The notes under the pieces were generated by a model. It saw nothing but the letters and a program-made list of their open reading frames with translations. It was not told where the DNA came from and did no database searches. Positions 20,841 to 33,727 of a DNA stretch of 64,000 bases are shown one piece after another; within the stretch, counting starts at the first letter, position 1; each line of letters starts with the position of its first letter. Source of the DNA: Deltaproteobacteria bacterium IMCC39524 (GTDB lineage Bacteria > Desulfobacterota > Desulfuromonadia > Desulfuromonadales > BM103); NCBI GenBank assembly GCA_029667085.1, contig JARUHJ010000005.1, positions 62,001 to 126,000 of the forward strand. Reading direction: 5' to 3'. The position numbers and the translations under genes are program-made.

Positions 20841-23156
20841 CTAAACCGTGATCTCCATCGCCCAGACACCGCAGGGGCAGATGCCCGAGCAGACACTGCA
20901 GCCGATACAGACGTCATCGTCGGAGACGTACTCGAAGGTCCCATCCTCATTCTCGACACGGCTGATCGCGCCTTCCGGGCAAGCTTCGAGACACATGGTG
21001 CAATCGCGGCAAGTACCGCAGGAGAGGCAACGCAACGTCTCGTCCTTGGCGTCTGTGACGCAGAATTTACCTCGGTTGCGCGGCTTGAACAGTTCCTTGG
21101 AGAGGCAGCTCTGATTGATCATTTCAGGTTTGACAATGGGCTCGATCTCTTTGCCAGCCAGGTAATCATCAATCAGGAGAGCCGCTTCCTGGCCACCGCC
21201 GATAGCATGAGTGAGCAGACCAGGCTGAACCGTATCGCCGATGGAGAAAACGCCTTTGGCTTTAACCACCTGGTTGCAGGCATCAACATCCATCATGCCG
21301 CGATCGGTCAGCCACTCGCGTGGCACGTAAGAAAGGTCAGGACGCTCACCGATTGCGATGATCACCTCGTCAGCCTCAATCATTTCGCCATCTTTGGTCA
21401 ACAGTCCTTCTGCAGTGACTTTCTCAGTGAAGACCGGCCAGCGGATTTCACCACCGAGAGCCTTAACGCTGTCGATCTCGTGCTTGTAAGCTGCAGGGCG
21501 CTGGATATCTATGCACAGAACTTTTTCTGCACCCATGGCGTAAGCACCAAGACAAACGTCCATACCCGCGTTACCGGCACCGATGACAATGACACGTTTA
21601 CCAACCTTGGGCTTTTTGCCAGCATTGACTGCCTTGAGAAAATCAAGACCCTTTGTCATCAGTTCGTGTCCCGGGAAAGGGATCACGACGGGATTATGGG
21701 CACCTGAGGCGATCACGACAGCATCGCTTTCTTTCTCGATGTTGGCGAAAAGAGCCGCATCGACCTTGGTCTTATTCTTGACCGTAATCCCAACATCCTT
21801 GATGCGCTGAATCTCTGATTCGAGTGAATCTGCCGGCAGACGATCCGTCGGAATAACTTGACGCAGCTTGCCGCCGACCTCTTCATCAGCTTCATAAACG
21901 GTCACACCATGACCGAGCAGGCGCAGTTGCCATGCCGCCGCTAAACCGCCAGGGCCACCGCCAATAACTGCAACCTGTTTTCCTGTTTCAGCCTTCAGCT
22001 CGGGAGCTGCGACATTGCGCGACAAACGACCAAGCTCTTTCATGGCGACAGGTTTATCGATGTAACGACGACTACAAGCATCCATACAGAGGTTCGGGCA
22101 AACTTCACCACAAACACTGGCCGGGAACGGCGAGTATTTTAGCACCAGCTCGAGGGCTTCCTCGAACTTCCCCTGGCGCAACAGGTTAATGCGGTCCTGG
22201 GTCGGGATATTCGACGGACAGGCCACCTGGCAAGGCGCACCGAAACGTTTATCCTGCCAATGCGGAATCTTGATGCGGTCGGCACCGGCATTAACCAAAC
22301 CGGCGACGTGAGCGTAATCATCCTTGACGACATCTGCGAAGATACCGCCATCGCCGACCCATTTCTGGGTGCGGAATTCGCGCAAGGTTGTCCGCGAGCG
22401 GATATTACGTTCTTCGTAAGTCTTGGCAACAATCTTCTGCCACTCGGAAAAGTCGGTCAGCTCTTTTTCCAGCTGAGGACGACCAATCTTGCCCAAGAAG
22501 ACAGGCATGTTTTCTTTCAGGAAAGCCTGATCGCCGTCATCCAGGGAGAGCACCCAGACATCATCCGAGAGACCATCAACCGGTCCACGAACATAAATGG
22601 TACCACCGACCATACCCATGCAGGAGCGATCGCCGAGAATCGAGGGGAGCTCTTCACGACCATAACCGCAGACCACACCAATACCACCGCCCATGAACTC
22701 GAAAGAAAAGGAGCCGGTATTCTTGAGGATCCAGAACTCCGGAACGTCATAGGCCGGATCGTGCTTCATCAGCGAACCGGAACGAGTACCGACGCGACCT
22801 GCAACATAGATCTTGCCACTCGCTGCGCAGTGGGCCGTGGTGTCACCGCCATCACCAAGGATAGTCAATTCGGCGCCGGCGTTCAGCCAACCGGCGTCGG
22901 CAGGGGCCGAACCTTCGACCACGATTTCCGTTCCTTCGAGGCCGAAAGAGCCAACCCGCTGACCCGGGTTTTTGACCCGGAACTTGAGCGGCCGACCATC
23001 TTCCGTCCACAGAGGACCACCAATATTGTGATGTCCTGAAGAGGTTACCTCAAATTCCGTCTCACCCTGCTCCAGCGAGCGATAGATCTGCTGCAGAAGC
23101 GCTTGGGTGGAGATGCGGCGTTGTTTCGCGTCATAGCCTGAAATTTTTGCTGCCAT
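20841..23156 (-). CDS. Glutamate synthase subunit: GXGXG domain fused to GltD-type oxidoreductase with ferredoxin tail
   Basis: A 771-residue fusion. Residues about 1-250 match the GXGXG beta-helix (third domain of GltB, with GGPLW, VGSFGLEGTEIVVEGSA and GGTIYVRGPV). The remainder is a GltD-like FAD/NAD(P)H oxidoreductase: an N-terminal Cys cluster (CQVACPSNIPTQDR), a Rossmann motif (GGGPGGLAAAWQL) and a second NAD(P) motif (IGAGNAGMDV). The C-terminus carries two more [4Fe-4S] clusters (CLSCGTCRDCTMCLEACP and CIGCSVCSGICPCG). It would pass electrons to the FMN subunit of glutamate synthase. The ATG at 23156 has GAGG 8 bases upstream; the frame extends to 23231 through repeat sequence that is not part of the protein. 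Confidence 0.9.
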   Translation of the reverse strand: MAAKISGYDAKQRRISTQALLQQIYRSLEQGETEFEVTSSGHHNIGGPLWTEDGRPLKFRVKNPGQRVGSFGLEGTEIVVEGSAPADAGWLNAGAELTILGDGGDTTAHCAASGKIYVAGRVGTRSGSLMKHDPAYDVPEFWILKNTGSFSFEFMGGGIGVVCGYGREELPSILGDRSCMGMVGGTIYVRGPVDGLSDDVWVLSLDDGDQAFLKENMPVFLGKIGRPQLEKELTDFSEWQKIVAKTYEERNIRSRTTLREFRTQKWVGDGGIFADVVKDDYAHVAGLVNAGADRIKIPHWQDKRFGAPCQVACPSNIPTQDRINLLRQGKFEEALELVLKYSPFPASVCGEVCPNLCMDACSRRYIDKPVAMKELGRLSRNVAAPELKAETGKQVAVIGGGPGGLAAAWQLRLLGHGVTVYEADEEVGGKLRQVIPTDRLPADSLESEIQRIKDVGITVKNKTKVDAALFANIEKESDAVVIASGAHNPVVIPFPGHELMTKGLDFLKAVNAGKKPKVGKRVIVIGAGNAGMDVCLGAYAMGAEKVLCIDIQRPAAYKHEIDSVKALGGEIRWPVFTEKVTAEGLLTKDGEMIEADEVIIAIGERPDLSYVPREWLTDRGMMDVDACNQVVKAKGVFSIGDTVQPGLLTHAIGGGQEAALLIDDYLAGKEIEPIVKPEMINQSCLSKELFKPRNRGKFCVTDAKDETLRCLSCGTCRDCTMCLEACPEGAISRVENEDGTFEYVSDDDVCIGCSVCSGICPCGVWAMEITV

Positions 23157-23180
23157 ATTTAAAACCTCTAAGAAGGTTCG

Positions 23181-23230
23181 GGACTGGGGTTTGGGGCTAG
23201 GGCCTAGATTTAACCAGCCCCCAGACCCCA
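23181..23230. repeat. G-rich/C-rich inverted repeat inside the glutamate synthase operon
   Basis: GGACTGGGGTTTGGGGCT (23181-23198) pairs imperfectly with CCAGCCCCCAGACCCC (23214-23229). It fills the gap between two cotranscribed genes and could be an intercistronic stabiliser or attenuator. Confidence 0.45.
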
Positions 23231-23247
23231 TCCTCTAGCCTCGGACT

Positions 23248-24891
23248 TTAACATACGTACTGAATATCCAACCTGTCAGCGACGGCCTTGTCCGTGGAGA
23301 TCAAAGCATCGGAACGACCTACCGGCAACGATGAGTTGCCAATCGGGGCCATCAACTTCTTGAACTCGGTATCCATGGCCAGGAAGTAATTGACAATATT
23401 CTCGGCGACCCGGTCGACATCGAGGCGATGCACTAACTGCTCTTCCTGAGTGGTGATACCGACCGGACAGAGGCCCGTGTTGCAAGCGTTGCAGCGGCCC
23501 ATGTCATTGCCGACGCAACCGGCCATCTGCAGAATCAACTTACCGGTGAAAACTCCGTTGGCACCGAGGCACATCATTTTGAATGCGTCCGCAGCCAAGT
23601 CACCGGTTTTGCCGAGACCGCCAGCTGCCCAGAGTGGAATCTGGCCCTGACGACCCTGGGCCGTCGCGGCCTGGTAGCAGTCACGCAGTTTGGATACGAT
23701 TGGATGACCCGTGTGGTCTAGAGAGACCTCATGGGCCGCACCGGTACCGCCATCAATGCCGTCGAGGAAGAAACCACCGACGATATTGTAAGGATCGCGC
23801 ACCAGGTTGTTGAAAACGCTGACCGAAGTCGACGACGCCGCAACCTTGATCGCCACAGGCACGCGAAACTTGAATGCCGAGTTGAAAGAGAGGAACATCT
23901 TCTGCACGCTCTCTTCAATAGAATATAGGCCCTGATGGTTCGGTGGTGAGAGCAGGTCAGCCTTGGGCACACCACGAATTGCCTGGATATGCTCGGCGAC
24001 CTTGCCGGCTTGCAGAAGTCCGCCATCGCCGGGCTTGGCGCCCTGGCCAATCTTGATCAGGATACCGGCGGGATCTTCGACCATATGCGGCATCGCCTTG
24101 GCGATCCGGTTCCAGCCGAAATGGCCCGAGGCGATCTGCAGGATCATGTATTTGAGGTACCTGCTCTTGAGCAAACGTACCGGAACACCACCCTCACCCG
24201 AGCACATGCGTACCGGCATGCCGCACTCTTCGTTGAGGTAAGCGACGGCGATGGCGACGGCTTCCCACATCCGCCAGGAGAGGGCTCCGATCGACATGTC
24301 ACCGATAATCACCGGGTAGATCCAGCGCACCGGCGGCATGGAGGCTTCCACCTGCAGGTTGTTCTGGTCATCGATGCTGAACGGCAGACTCTGAGCGGGC
24401 ATGATGCGGCCAAAGGGGGCGAGCAGATCGAAGGTATGCCGCTGCGCATCGAGACTCGGGTCGGTCATCTGCGAAATACGACCGATGCGCATTTTGTCGA
24501 GGGTACGCACAGACGACTCGAGATTCTTCCGGCCACCGCGCTTGATCGAATCGCCACCGAGACAGCGGGTAATAACCGGATGCCGGGTGTCCTGGTTTCT
24601 CTCAGGAGCGATAGCATCGTTGGGACAGACTTTCTCGCAGATACCACAGCCACGACAGTAGTGCTGCACATCTTTGACCTGGCGAATAACCGGTACCGCG
24701 GAGAAGCGTTGTTGTGGGTCGGGCAGTTCCCCTTCGGAGAAAACCATGCGCCGACGCTCTACCTTGCATTCGATGGCACGGAAGGAACATGCTGAAACAC
24801 AGGAACCACAGAGAGTGCAGCGACTGGCGTCATACTTGATTTTCCAGGGCATGTCATTCGGTGTGACATGCTGAACTCTCATTGTCTCCAT
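23248..24891 (-). CDS. Glutamate synthase FMN-binding (catalytic) subunit with ferredoxin domain
   Basis: A 547-residue protein equivalent to the central synthase domain of GltB, preceded by a two-cluster ferredoxin domain (Cys25/28/31/35 and Cys79/82/85/89). The FMN barrel includes SGEGGVPVR, the IKIGQGAKPGDGGLL segment and DGIDGGTGAA, with a Cys-rich 3Fe-4S type motif (CNACNTGLCPVG) near residue 460. It combines 2-oxoglutarate with ammonia from the amidotransferase subunit to give glutamate. Single-domain subunits of this kind are known in archaea and some anaerobes. GGAGG lies 7 bases before the ATG. The gene overlaps the amidotransferase gene by 13 bases. Confidence 0.93.
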   Translation of the reverse strand: METMRVQHVTPNDMPWKIKYDASRCTLCGSCVSACSFRAIECKVERRRMVFSEGELPDPQQRFSAVPVIRQVKDVQHYCRGCGICEKVCPNDAIAPERNQDTRHPVITRCLGGDSIKRGGRKNLESSVRTLDKMRIGRISQMTDPSLDAQRHTFDLLAPFGRIMPAQSLPFSIDDQNNLQVEASMPPVRWIYPVIIGDMSIGALSWRMWEAVAIAVAYLNEECGMPVRMCSGEGGVPVRLLKSRYLKYMILQIASGHFGWNRIAKAMPHMVEDPAGILIKIGQGAKPGDGGLLQAGKVAEHIQAIRGVPKADLLSPPNHQGLYSIEESVQKMFLSFNSAFKFRVPVAIKVAASSTSVSVFNNLVRDPYNIVGGFFLDGIDGGTGAAHEVSLDHTGHPIVSKLRDCYQAATAQGRQGQIPLWAAGGLGKTGDLAADAFKMMCLGANGVFTGKLILQMAGCVGNDMGRCNACNTGLCPVGITTQEEQLVHRLDVDRVAENIVNYFLAMDTEFKKLMAPIGNSSLPVGRSDALISTDKAVADRLDIQYVC

Positions 24892-25985
24892 CGCTGCACC
24901 TCCAGGCTGTTATCGATGGCTACGATTTCACGCTCATGAGGGTAGATGTCCGTTTCCCAGTCGCGGTCAGGCAGGATGTCGTTGATACCACAGACTTCGG
25001 AGGAGATAACCACTGTGTCATGGGTACGGCCAACCACCACGGGACGCAGCTTCTTGGCATCGCAGCAGGTAAACATGGTGAAATCAGGCAACACCCCGAT
25101 GATGGTGTTGGGGCCATTGATCTCCAGATGAGCCAACGACTGGCGCATTGCCAGAAGCTGCTCTTTATCTTCGCGTTGCTCCAGGTCACCAAAGGGTAAA
25201 GGCGTGACCACGTGCTTGTAATATCGCAGCGGCCAACGCAATTCACGATGCACGTAATGGAGCGTGTAAAGGAAACACTGGGAGTCAGACTCGAAACCGA
25301 TATAGCCGCGATGCAGCTTGCGCTGGGCTTCAACGTTCTTCAGATAGAAAGTATTTTCACCGTTGGCCAGCGCCGTGTAACCCTGCATGAAAAAAGGGTG
25401 GGCGGCGTAACGCACGATATCGTAGTTGGTATTCTGACGACATTGGGCGGTGATCACCCTTGCGGTGAACTTCTCGTCCGGAGTCCAAAGTTTGAAGTAG
25501 GTACCGATATCACGAGGGTCACCGATCTCCTTGAGGGTTACGACATCAGGCCAGAATGAGTAGACAAAGCCCTGCTCATCCTTCTCAAGAGCTTTACGCA
25601 ACTTAAGGCGCATATCGAGGAGCAACTCCTCTTTGTCCTTCTGTTCGCCATTACGGAAATAACGTGGATAATCAAAAGTCTCGAAAACATAGTTCGGCAT
25701 GGCGTGAATATCCAGACCGGGTTGTGGGTCAGTTTCCGGAACCCACTGCATGACACGCTGGAAACCTGCCTCGTGCAGCATATCTTCGGCAAGCTTCAAA
25801 CCCTCATCCGTGCACGCCATGGAGAGCGTCGGCAGATGTTTGTAATTTTCGAAGAGACCACCGAGATCGTGCATGACCATGGCAAAGCCGGAGTTGTCAT
25901 GCCCTTTCTGTTGGGACTCCATCAACTTCAGCGCGAGACTGGGATGGACATAGTTTGAGCTTTTAATTGCACCAATTCGGCACAT
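24879..25985 (-). CDS. Glutamate synthase glutaminase subunit (class II amidotransferase)
   Basis: A 368-residue protein with the Ntn-type glutamine amidotransferase fold. Its N-terminal MCRIGAIKS places the catalytic Cys at position 2, as in GltB and PurF, to be exposed by removal of Met1. QQKGHDNSGFAMV corresponds to the conserved glutamine-binding loop. It would release ammonia from glutamine and pass it to the FMN subunit encoded directly downstream. AGGAGG lies ahead of the ATG. It is the first gene of a three-gene minus-strand operon: amidotransferase, FMN subunit, GXGXG-GltD fusion. Confidence 0.9.
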   Translation of the reverse strand: MCRIGAIKSSNYVHPSLALKLMESQQKGHDNSGFAMVMHDLGGLFENYKHLPTLSMACTDEGLKLAEDMLHEAGFQRVMQWVPETDPQPGLDIHAMPNYVFETFDYPRYFRNGEQKDKEELLLDMRLKLRKALEKDEQGFVYSFWPDVVTLKEIGDPRDIGTYFKLWTPDEKFTARVITAQCRQNTNYDIVRYAAHPFFMQGYTALANGENTFYLKNVEAQRKLHRGYIGFESDSQCFLYTLHYVHRELRWPLRYYKHVVTPLPFGDLEQREDKEQLLAMRQSLAHLEINGPNTIIGVLPDFTMFTCCDAKKLRPVVVGRTHDTVVISSEVCGINDILPDRDWETDIYPHEREIVAIDNSLEVQRWRQ

Positions 25986-30243: not shown

Positions 30244-31263
30244 ATGCATAGGAAGGTATCACTATCCAGGACGTCCTGGCTGGTCAAACTCCTTCCCCTG
30301 TTACTGTTCCTGGGGGCATGCGCCACCGGAGCAATCAGGGAGAAGCAGTTAACACTGCCAGTTATTGACGGCGCAACTTCCGTAGGCCAAGAGGCCTGCG
30401 CGGAGTGTCATGAAGGTATGAGCGCAGGTGTTCACTCGCGCTTGGCCGGATTCGAGTATATGGGCGGCACCGAAGGGTGCGAAGCTTGCCATGGCGGCGG
30501 CAGCCTGCATGTCGACTCGGACGGCGATCAGATTCTCAAGTTTGGCGAACTGCTGCCGGAAGAATCTGCAGCGATTTGCGCCAAGTGTCACGCTGACGGC
30601 AAACTGATGGACTGGACACACAGCGAGCACGCCCTTACCGATGTGGGCTGCACCGACTGCCACTCTGTTCATGCCGGCGGCAAAACAGCTCTCAAGCAGC
30701 AGGATCCAGAGCTCTGCTATTCCTGTCATCAGGAGCAACAGGCAAAAGCCAACTTCCCCTCCCATCATCCGATCAAGGAAGGCAAAATGAATTGCGGCGA
30801 TTGTCACAATCCTCACGGCGAGTTGAATACCGTCGAGCGCACCAACGACCTCTGCCTTGACTGTCACAGCCGTTACCAGGGGCCATTCGTTTTTGGCCAT
30901 GCTCCCGTAGAAGATGACTGCACCATCTGTCACGACCCACATGGTTCGGTGGCCAACAACATGCTGGTTCAGAATGAGCCCTTCCTCTGCCTGCAGTGCC
31001 ATGAAGGTCATTTTCACATCCTGCGCAAGGGCTTCGACCCGGCGAGCGGCAACTACACAACCCCGGGCGCGAACCCAACCCCCAACATGCCTGGTGGCGT
31101 CCCGGCCGGAGCAACCGTCCCGGCTAAAGTTGACGCAGCCAACCCGCATGGTGTTGAAGGATGGCAGATGTCATTCGGCACAAAGTGCACCACATGTCAC
31201 GCTGTTGTACATGGCAGCGATTTACCATCACAACCACTTACCGGTGGCGGTCTGACCCGCTAA
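30244..31263 (+). CDS. Decaheme c-type cytochrome lipoprotein, MtrA/DmsE family
   Basis: A 339-residue protein with ten CxxCH heme sites (Cys52, 79, 112, 136, 158, 184, 204, 226, 249 and 315 begin them), the number and size of MtrA/DmsE decaheme cytochromes. These thread through an MtrB-type barrel and carry electrons across the outer membrane. Unlike MtrA, it has a lipoprotein signal: LGAC with Cys26 as the lipid attachment site. A Pro/Gly-rich insert (about 263-300) separates hemes 9 and 10. AAGGAG precedes the ATG. The porin gene starts 16 bases after its stop, so they form an operon. Confidence 0.92.
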   Translation: MHRKVSLSRTSWLVKLLPLLLFLGACATGAIREKQLTLPVIDGATSVGQEACAECHEGMSAGVHSRLAGFEYMGGTEGCEACHGGGSLHVDSDGDQILKFGELLPEESAAICAKCHADGKLMDWTHSEHALTDVGCTDCHSVHAGGKTALKQQDPELCYSCHQEQQAKANFPSHHPIKEGKMNCGDCHNPHGELNTVERTNDLCLDCHSRYQGPFVFGHAPVEDDCTICHDPHGSVANNMLVQNEPFLCLQCHEGHFHILRKGFDPASGNYTTPGANPTPNMPGGVPAGATVPAKVDAANPHGVEGWQMSFGTKCTTCHAVVHGSDLPSQPLTGGGLTR

Positions 31264-31279: not shown

Positions 31280-33559
31280 ATGAAGCACTTAGTAAAGCTG
31301 CTTGCGCTATTGTCCATCCTGGTCTTGGCGGCGACCTCCACGCTGGCAATTGCGGAAGAAGAATCCGCACATCTCAGCGGCAAAATGGAAGTCGGCGTTT
31401 CAGGAGTGGATACCAAGGACAATCCTGCACGCGTCAATGAGTACGCAAAATATCGTTCAAAAGATGGAGTCAACCTGGCTCCAAGCCTTGACCTGGAGTA
31501 TTCAAGCAAGAAACTCGAACTCGGGTTCGAGGGCTCCTCAATGGGTCCTCGCGACCAGAAGTATGACCTCGGACTTGATTACAGTCGTATTTTCAAGCTC
31601 GATGTCGAATACCAGGTGTTCGAGCACTGGAAAGACCATGACAATCTCGGTCACATCGGTGCGACCATGAGGGGAGATATCGCCGGAGAACAACCTCGTG
31701 TAACGTCCGACGCTACTGTCGGACAGATTGGCGTTGACACCATCCCTGAAGCTAATGAGCGCTACTACCAGGAACTCGACAACAATTACATTATCACCCA
31801 TCGCGAGATGGAAAACGATGCTGAACTGACACTGCCCACACTGCCGAACGTAACCTTCCATGCTGGCTACCGCATAGAAGAGCGTGAAGGCCTGGAGCAG
31901 GCCAGAACCTCAAGTAAGTGCAATCAGTGTCACATCCAGGCCAACGGTAAAGACATCGACGAGAAAACGGAAGACCTGACCTTTGGCGCCACTGGTAAAT
32001 TCGGATTAGTCACGATCGACTATGAGTATCTCACACGTGACTTTAACGCAGATGGCAAATCACCTTCTTACAACTACGTAGGCTCCGGGGCTACTCACGG
32101 TGGAGTACTGGACACCGCCACTCTCCTCTATTATGGAGAAGAGCTAACTTACGGCCAGACCCCTGACTCCGAGAAGGACAGTCACTCCGTAAAGGCACGT
32201 CTCGACATAGCTCGTGGTTCCTCTGTAACTGCATCGTATGTCAAGGCCGACATTGAGTCGAACAAGGATACGGACCCCTCCTATACACTCAGCAAGAGTA
32301 CTTTGAAGAGTGAATTTGAGTCCTTCTTCCTGAAAGGTTCAACGCGTATCGGTGGGCTGCGGCTCTCCCTGCGTGGCGGCACCTACGAGATTGATGGGCC
32401 GACATATACGGCCAACTTCCCCGACTTGGTTGGAGCGAACATTGATCCTGCCGTACGCGACACCGCCACAGGCAATGTCGAGTACGAATCTGCGGAATCC
32501 CGCGAGGTGACGGAGTTGGGCATCGACGGTGTCTACCGTCTGGCCATCGCCACAACCTTGCGTCTTGGTTACGAGTACGAAGAGATCGACCGGGACGAAG
32601 ACGAGTTAGGCGACACGGAGACCAACACCTTTAAGGTCGCTGTGAACACCCGTCTGAACAAGCAACTGTCCGGACGCATCAGCTACAAGTACCAGGATAT
32701 CGACGAACCTCTCGCAGGCCCTAAAACCGGAATCCTACAAACAGCTGCATACCAGGACCCGAATTTTCCGGGAATGGCCTACGACAACACAGCCAACTAC
32801 CTCGGCGACCCCGGCAACGGCCCCGCTGTGTACTACTGGAATACGGCCTACCCGAATCGGATGCTCGACACCTCCATGTCACCGGATGAGGTTAATGAAG
32901 TCAAACTTTCTACGACCTGGGCCCCGGCGGCCAACGTGGCAGCAACATTTTTTGCCCGGGTTCGTAAGGAGGAGAACGACTCTGTCAATTATGAGCAGAA
33001 AACCTACATCCCTGGTGCTTCAATCTACTACGCACCAAACGACAAGTTGAACCTGACCATGGCGTACACGTTCAACAAGATGGAAACGGAGAATCAGATG
33101 TGCGTCGGCTGGTACCATGGCTGAGCGAACTCCATCTCATCGACCCAGTTTGGGTCGTACTGCGACACAGCCGAATATGATTCTGACGTTCACACTTTAG
33201 CCCTGAATGCTGACTATCAGGCCACCGAAAAACTGAGCCTCAATGCTGGCTTTATCTACAACAACGCCGAAGACAGCTGGAAATGGGAGTTTGGCGATCG
33301 CCCGCAACTAGTGTTTGGAGGATCAGCAAAGCCCAGCTACGACAACACCGATGGCTACAACAACCTGATCGACAGCTACTCTGATCTTTCTTATGAGCAG
33401 TATTCGACAACGGTTGGCGGAACCTACCAATTCACGGATGCTCTGTATACGACGGCATCTTTCACTTACGACGTCTTCGAATCTGATGAAGAGTATGTCT
33501 ATGGTGATGAGGATGGTAAGGCTTACTACAGCTACGTTGGTGTTGGTTACCGTTTCTAA
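31280..33559 (+). CDS. MtrB/PioB-type outer-membrane porin, predicted selenoprotein (in-frame TGA read as Sec615)
   Basis: With TGA at 33122-33124 read through, the gene encodes 759 residues: signal peptide (about 1-25, ending TLAIA), then a beta-barrel rich in alternating Tyr/polar strands, ending in GVGYRF with the terminal Phe typical of outer-membrane proteins. TGA is the only interruption; 144 codons in the same frame follow. The segment is CVGWYHG-Sec-ANSISS, with Cys608 seven residues before and Cys628 after. A CxxCH motif (Cys214-His218) could bind one heme, at about the position where family members carry CxxC. It follows the decaheme gene with AGGAGG before ATG. Stopping at TGA would leave 614 residues without the last strands. 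A nonsense mutation is the alternative. Confidence 0.8.
33141..33157 (+). promoter_or_regulatory. Candidate bacterial SECIS element
   Basis: CGACCC (33141-33146), loop AGTTT (33147-33151) and GGGTCG (33152-33157). The stem starts 16 bases after the TGA. The loop has G at its second position followed by T (33148-33149), 24 and 25 bases after the TGA. As I recall the rules for bacterial SECIS elements (short stem, G within the first two loop bases, about 16-37 bases from TGA), it meets all three. Confidence 0.7.
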
Positions 33560-33593: not shown

Positions 33594-33623
33594 GCCCGGC
33601 TGGTTCTCCAGCCGGGCCTTTTT
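33594..33623 (+). terminator. Terminator of the cytochrome-porin operon
   Basis: Arms GCCCGGCTGG (33594-33603) and CCAGCCGGGC (33608-33617), 4-base loop, then CTTTTT. It lies 35 bases after the porin stop and shows the operon has just two genes. Confidence 0.92.
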
Positions 33624-33681: not shown

Positions 33682-33727
33682 TTTGCGTCTTTCCTGGCTT
33701 TTCTTAGCGTCTTTGCGTTGCTCTTTT
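33682..33727. repeat. Intergenic 9-bp-unit repeat (TTTGCGTCT type)
   Basis: Units such as CTTTGCGTC and CGTCTTTGCG are iterated imperfectly between the porin terminator and the degP terminator. It resembles in style the repeats at 6674-6787 and 49644-49807. Confidence 0.4.

Follow-up and report, generated by a model that had tools for sequence, protein, structure and literature searches.

A probable selenocysteine-containing porin of an Mtr-type outer membrane conduit, with a proposed redox role at its predicted extracellular face

In Deltaproteobacteria bacterium IMCC39524, a gene for an outer membrane porin carries a TGA codon within its reading frame. The question raised by this locus is whether that codon ends the protein or encodes selenocysteine (Sec) and, if the latter, what a selenocysteine would do in a porin. 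The window referred to below is the whole stretch of 64,000 nucleotides that was analyzed; the gene and the parts of it that bear on the first half of the question are as follows.

31280 to 33559, + strand: MtrB/PioB-type outer membrane porin of the GSU2204/OmcL family, 759 amino acids with Sec615 (NF041027, PF11854, predicted fold)
33122 to 33124, + strand: TGA, very probably decoded as selenocysteine 615 (codon census, SECIS covariation, Sec machinery)
33125 to 33556, + strand: part after the TGA, 144 codons, with the last five predicted barrel strands and the terminal Phe (reading frame, predicted fold)
33141 to 33157, + strand: SECIS hairpin with a 7-bp stem and an apical GUU loop closed by A-U (geometry, conservation, covariation)

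Our rereading of the frame agreed with a first-pass annotation made from the sequence, which had described a single in-frame TGA followed by a long open frame: the TGA (residue 615) is the sole in-frame stop between 31280 and 33559, and it is followed by a further 144 codons, the last of them for Phe759, and a closing TAA. Under the standard code the porin ORF stops at the TGA after 614 amino acids, as it would if the codon were a true stop, whether through gene decay, an error in sequencing, or deliberate truncation of the porin. Against this stand the TGA that 72 of 85 relatives share at this position, with the protein conserved on both sides in the manner of recoding; the covariation of the RNA hairpin that follows it; and the recurrence of the same TGA in a separate assembly that is 99% identical (L004). 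We consider a true stop scarcely credible. The genome also encodes what decoding requires, and the four genes whose presence had been named as a check were all found: selA (620.6 bits), selB (405.5 bits), selD (361.8 bits), and selC, a tRNA-Sec with anticodon tca. SelD is itself Sec-coded, its frame containing a TGA within a GUAAK stretch. With the codon census, the covarying hairpin, and the decoding genes in agreement, the earlier assignment of Sec615 is upheld, and codon 615 is almost certainly a selenocysteine codon. A scan of the window for read-through of in-frame TGAs gave 15 rows; the 14 others were judged by eye to be antisense or spurious. Comparison with plasmid records gave no match.

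Across genomes, selA accompanies the porin family: it was found in every one of the 39 class genomes that score over the family cut-off (lists matched by hand), versus 172 of 194 overall (hypergeometric p = 0.005, with genomes treated as independent despite their kinship). In G026 and G054, which belong to a single genus, a decaheme cytochrome gene and the Sec porin gene are followed by selA and then by a convergent selB. At these loci (L119, G026:C33:48500-55500; L120, G054:C13:37500-45000) selA lies directly after the Sec porin gene, so that the conduit pair adjoins the Sec machinery; selA was placed there by profile-match coordinates and selB was recognized by eye.

The alignment of homologs at codon 615 that had been proposed as a check gave TGA in 72, Cys in 8, and neither in 5 (T, L, S, R, and H) of the 85 relatives read. 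With the window included, TGA is present in 73 of 86 sequences, and this is the informative count, a TGA form being defined by its codon and 73/73 therefore uninformative. The profile NF041027 was searched in 194 class genomes and 395 phylum genomes and exceeded its cut-off in 39 and 40 of them, two overlapping sets; loci were fetched from these searches and from three named contigs. Sampling covers one phylum, together with a scan of genome contigs using close-relative patterns (four loci). Dropped from the census were the window's own copy (L031), the 99% identical L004, the duplicate L024 (of L006), and L036, L068, and L090, in which contig or frame stops short of the site. Sites in truncated or other matches, such as those of G146, G142:C92, G161:C255, G167, G518, G443, G432, G330, G196, G565, and G395, were left unread, as were most matches below the cut-off, so that Cys and other forms may be undercounted.

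Gly614 is invariant in all 81 TGA and Cys forms. The eight Cys forms make up a single clade (SH-aLRT 99) nested inside the TGA forms, in a tree built by a quick method with the five neither-forms as outgroup, although these do not lie on one side of any branch, and with long branches flagged; the partial sequences L073, L075, and L076 were left out of it as well, and only column 615 was removed, the Cys columns being kept. One replacement of Sec by Cys would be the fewest-change reading of this tree. Every Cys form sits in a genome in which a TGA form was also read (G138, G057, G120, G134, G055, G047, G238, and G508), and four of the five neither-forms score below the NF041027 cut-off, with L112 above it. 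One Cys-form paralog, L113 (G238:C87), is interrupted by a TGA in frame at the position that is Arg527 in all 73 TGA forms; this is probably a nonsense change or an assembly error, not Sec. The window's own genome holds a second MtrB/PioB-like porin of 741 amino acids (L072; G000:C3:354500-361500), which keeps the CXXCH motif, has Thr at the Sec position, and is preceded by an ORF with nine CXXCH motifs.

A SECIS-like hairpin conforming to the bacterial rules had also been noted on first reading. Its position was confirmed: the hairpin CGACCCA-GTT-TGGGTCG at 33141-33157 begins 16 bases past the TGA, and its apical loop begins 23 bases past the TGA, with a G within loop positions 1 and 2. This geometry fits the rules given in PMC13188914 (loop of 3 to 9 nt, stem of 4 to 16 bp, G within positions 1 and 2 of the loop, 16 to 37 nt from the UGA). 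The folding check that had been suggested was borne out only for the presence of the hairpin; its energy was no better than that of shuffled sequence (z = -0.11; 89 of 200 shuffles fold equally well), and folding energy was dropped as evidence for a SECIS. By a simple rule of our own (7-bp stem, G in the loop, right distance), 28 of the 2,351 TGAs on both strands of the window (1.2%) are followed by a matching hairpin. Since neither the folding energy nor such a simple hairpin is distinctive, the case for the SECIS rests on comparison. Rfam returned no SECIS family, and its four matches were all far under their gathering scores.

Comparison of homologs, another check put forward earlier, showed that the hairpin is kept with compensatory changes. 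In a set of 36 distinct homologous sites (39 rows, with the window used for L031 and with L004 and L024 left out), 97.6% of the 252 stem cells pair and 25 cells, over four pairs, have changed on both sides; none of 500 shuffles reached either value. The covariation score was 0.351, compared with at most 0.129 when the partner was slid by one to three columns, and again no shuffle of 500 reached it. Conservation and covariation across these 36 sites thus place the hairpin above chance. The best pair (columns 35/45) links base 2 of codon 622 with base 3 of the Gly625 codon, and is C-G in 20, G-C in 9, G-U in 4, and U-A in 3 sequences, with zero failures. Gly625 is kept in 72 of 73 TGA forms; because any third base gives Gly and the base here nevertheless tracks codon 622, protein constraint is a poor explanation for this pairing.

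The phylum-wide alignment of 67 rows gave a covariation score of 0.323 (versus a shuffled mean of 0.117; 0 of 500 shuffles), and columns 35/45 were paired in 65 of 67 rows (C-G 29, G-C 21, A-U 10, U-A 3, G-U 2). Two of five covariation measures did not rise above shuffles in this alignment, namely, the count of pairs with changes in both partners (2, equaled or exceeded in 488 of 500 shuffles) and that of further pair types (10, likewise in 371 of 500). A given pair can fail in as many as 23 of the 67 rows, as the outermost one does; these failures may reflect a different stem register in sequences of the L078/L088 type. The alignment also omits L014, L015, L016, L023, L075, and L076 (insertion, shifted spacing, or near-copies). 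Among the Cys forms, the six that were folded (of eight) have no stem at the place of the hairpin.

The protein itself belongs to a described family. The porin matches NF041027 with 605.5 bits (cut-off 350) over positions 2 to 580 of the 580-position profile, and the match stops at residue 614, immediately before the Sec codon. Two traits of that family are found here, a CNQCH motif at 214-218 and a TGA (615) right after the end of the match. The earlier assignment to MtrB/PioB-type porins agrees with a PF11854 (MtrB_PioB) score of 77.2 bits (gathering score 23) and with a predicted fold closest to MtrB. With TIGR03509, the score of 39.9 bits did not reach the cut-off of 240.05; by its sequence, the porin is a relative of that subfamily and not a member.

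The suggestion that this could be a new selenoprotein family does not survive, since the family is listed in NCBIfam as NF041027, "GSU2204 family CXXCH-containing (seleno)protein," and an MtrB/PioB-type porin is tabled as a selenoprotein family in both a 2022 review (PMC9312934), without a redox motif, and a 2026 review (PMC13188914), with the redox motif given as "-". Both reviews cite a 2008 paper (PMC2398784); in the main text of that paper, the terms "MtrB" and "outer membrane" are absent. The selenoprotein family is thus already known, and the window gene is a further member, no different in kind from GSU2204 (OmcL of Geobacter sulfurreducens). We infer the identity of GSU2204 with the "OmcL" of PMC10553843 from the citation of the hematite study in that paper. 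In the literature searched, with most subscription papers outside it, no proposal for a role of Sec in the porin was found, and in broader searches no title on Sec in a GSU2204-type porin appeared among the matches listed. We know of no earlier proposal of a porin that uses selenium to move electrons across the outer membrane. What the present analysis adds is the anatomy of the porin, with Sec615, the CXXCH motif, and outer Cys residues on a predicted extracellular face.

The porin gene is the second of a pair, and the unit is completed by two further features.

30244 to 31263, + strand: first gene of the pair, decaheme c-type cytochrome of the GSU2203/OmcK family (NF041028, 440.8 bits with a cut-off of 325; 10 CXXCH motifs)
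33594 to 33617, + strand: probable intrinsic terminator at the end of the two-gene unit (10-bp stem, then CTTTTT)

Terminator-like sites in the region number 6, against 3.9 expected by shuffling. Between the terminator and the next gene, at 33703-33717, lies CTTAGCGTCTTTGCG, which occurs once in the window against an expectation of 0.02 and which we take to resemble a dispersed motif of other genomes. Elsewhere in the window, three adjacent ORFs on the minus strand (20841-25985) resemble, by eye, a split glutamate synthase with separate genes.

A decaheme partner gene for an Mtr-type conduit is therefore present at 30244-31263. Just upstream of the porin, an ORF with 9 or 10 CXXCH motifs was found in 87 of 91 loci, and the other four hold little or no upstream DNA. 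No MtrC-like outer multiheme cytochrome was found in the window, where no other ORF of at least 80 codons on either strand has at least two CXXCH motifs; among the 91 loci, a downstream ORF with at least two such motifs was found only at L080 and L116, in same-strand flanks of up to 2.5 kb and often about 1 kb. At L080, an ORF with 12 CXXCH motifs directly follows the Sec porin and is a candidate outer cytochrome. The window cytochrome also matches the DmsE decaheme family (TIGR03508, 216.7 bits), which we take as marking it as MtrA-like. In PMC4070692, where GSU2203 is named OmcK, the OmcK homolog is taken as an extracellular cytochrome without a periplasmic partner gene; set against the MtrA-like DmsE match, this leaves two readings of the side of the membrane on which OmcK lies.

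The two genes correspond to those of the conduit known in Geobacter as OmcK/OmcL. Table 2 of PMC4070692 gives GSU2203 and GSU2204 as upregulated 2.68-fold and 2.36-fold, respectively, on hematite and 1.65-fold and 1.53-fold on magnetite. A cytochrome-porin pair of syntrophic sulfate reducers, OmcKL, is called homologous to G. sulfurreducens OmcK/OmcL in the available text of PMC10553843, which contains neither "selenocysteine" nor "selenoprotein"; the window pair is likened to it by description. The Geobacter protein ExtKL (NF040886), which has been linked to metal and selenite reduction, is, like the porin, a predicted selenoprotein, but it is a multiheme cytochrome in another gene cluster, whereas the window protein is a porin.

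Where the selenocysteine would lie was addressed with an AlphaFold2 model built on 41 aligned sequences (mean pLDDT 78.5). The predicted barrel has 26 strands, counted by hand from the secondary structure, the number given for MtrB in PMC12133095. The best structural match is MtrB (PDB 6r2q, chain B; Z of 28.1 over 588 residues, 14% identity), with the runner-up at a Z of 17.8. Like the porin, MtrB combines a 26-strand barrel with a decaheme cytochrome partner; GSU2204-type porins are set apart from it by their Sec and a CXXCH motif of their own. To our knowledge, MtrB has no Sec. The residues on which the rest of the argument turns are the following.

31919 to 31933, + strand: CNQCH, residues 214-218, putative site of heme c attachment at the tip of a hairpin predicted to be extracellular (invariance, model strands)
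31625 to 31627, + strand: His116, an invariant residue that may be the second axial ligand of a heme on the porin (invariance)
33101 to 33103, + strand: Cys608, seven residues before Sec (in 63 of 73 TGA forms and none of 8 Cys forms)
33161 to 33163, + strand: Cys628, the other Cys on the hairpin that bears Sec (found together with Cys608 in each of the 36 rows that the tree places in the window's clade)

Barrels of this kind generally have both ends in the periplasm. In the model, the CNQCH tip (213-217) joins strands 7 and 8 and the Sec tip (613-622) joins strands 21 and 22, both tips with a pLDDT below 50; as both barrel ends are taken to be periplasmic, both tips would be extracellular. 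The two Cys and the His of the CXXCH motif, together with His116, are invariant in all 70 covering TGA forms, all 8 Cys forms, and all 5 others. A heme may thus be carried by the porin on this motif, with His116 as its second ligand.

Sec615 is accompanied by further Cys residues on the same predicted side. At least one additional outer-face Cys occurs in all 73 TGA forms, in none of the 8 Cys forms, and in 2 of the 5 others, the outer-side ranges being our own choice from the model with margins that reach into the strands; the number per TGA form is two in 61, one in 3, and three or more in 9. The places differ: among the 70 TGA forms of the tree, Cys608 is paired with Cys628 in 36, a pair confined to one clade, and with Cys484/494 in 21, while 3 have Cys608 without these partners and 10 lack Cys608. 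Arrangement and residue type combined make six states with seven changes on the tree, against a floor of five, and the Cys places have thus shifted only a few times. A universal Cys608-Sec selenylsulfide is ruled out, Cys608 being missing in 10 of 73 TGA forms. In six of the eight Cys-form paralogs, Cys615 is the only Cys besides the CXXCH motif from residue 31 on. This distribution suggests a functional tie between Sec and the outer Cys residues that was dropped when Sec became Cys, which is a lead and not proof, as there is one Cys clade (one event) and a handful of shifts.

Taken together, we consider it probable that the porin with Sec615 belongs to an Mtr-type conduit in which the residue is placed extracellularly and has a Sec/Cys redox role. 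The porin and the decaheme OmcK encoded upstream would form this conduit through the outer membrane, and SelB with tRNA-Sec would decode UGA 615 at the SECIS hairpin 16 bases downstream; failed decoding would leave a barrel without its last five predicted strands. Sec615 would sit at the tip of the strand 21-22 hairpin on the extracellular rim, usually with two Cys nearby (Cys608 and Cys628 in the window protein); the porin CXXCH, with the invariant His116, would share this face. In our preferred reading, to which we give a probability of roughly one in two, Sec and Cys make up a redox centre where the conduit opens to the outside, working by selenylsulfide/disulfide exchange; this centre would hand electrons to an extracellular partner, take them from it, or sense its redox state. 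As the Cys forms lack an outer partner Cys, a selenylsulfide would not be essential to them, and as five relatives have neither Sec nor Cys, with L112 over the cut-off among them, the conduit fold would be independent of residue 615. A broader proposal, in which the porin is itself a redox protein with Sec615, the lineage-varying outer Cys, and a porin-borne heme as electron-transfer or switching centre at the conduit's outer opening, is more speculative, and we put it forward tentatively.

Two other roles for the residue would account for parts of the same evidence. Sec615 may serve surface attachment, holding a metal or a mineral (sulfide or oxide), or bonding to an extracellular cytochrome through a mixed selenylsulfide, and itself carry no electrons. 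Its exposed position at the predicted tip would suit this, as would the six paralogs with Cys615 as sole such Cys, and an unlinked partner could dock, since a downstream multi-CXXCH ORF occurs only at L080 and L116 of the 91 loci. Attachment gives no reason, however, for the presence of at least one outer Cys in every TGA form; we know of no partner for it, and we rank it as unlikely, second to the Sec/Cys redox centre. Last in our order of preference, and distinctly more improbable than attachment, is that Sec615 (Cys in the paralogs) is an axial ligand or direct neighbor of the porin heme, with His/Sec ligation tuning the exit potential. The CXXCH motif in every covering TGA and Cys form is in keeping with a ligand role, a Cys-form residue without an outer partner Cys is what would be expected of a ligand, and both tips lie on long hairpins of the same predicted face. 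However, the motif and His116 are equally invariant in the five relatives without Sec or Cys, which makes the heme independent of Sec and His116 the simpler second ligand, and strands 7-8 and 21-22 of 26 are roughly opposite each other on the predicted barrel.

The Sec/Cys redox centre at the outer mouth remains the reading that we prefer. For work on these conduits there is a practical consequence: since the family stands in selenoprotein lists while the OmcKL paper, in its available text, is silent on selenocysteine, a clone of the 614-codon ORF would cost an experimenter the last five predicted strands. More generally, porins of such conduits are usually viewed as insulating sheaths around a heme wire. 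The retention of a recoded codon, for a Sec predicted to face outward, in 73 of the 86 sequences sampled suggests that, in this family, the sheath may itself do chemistry.
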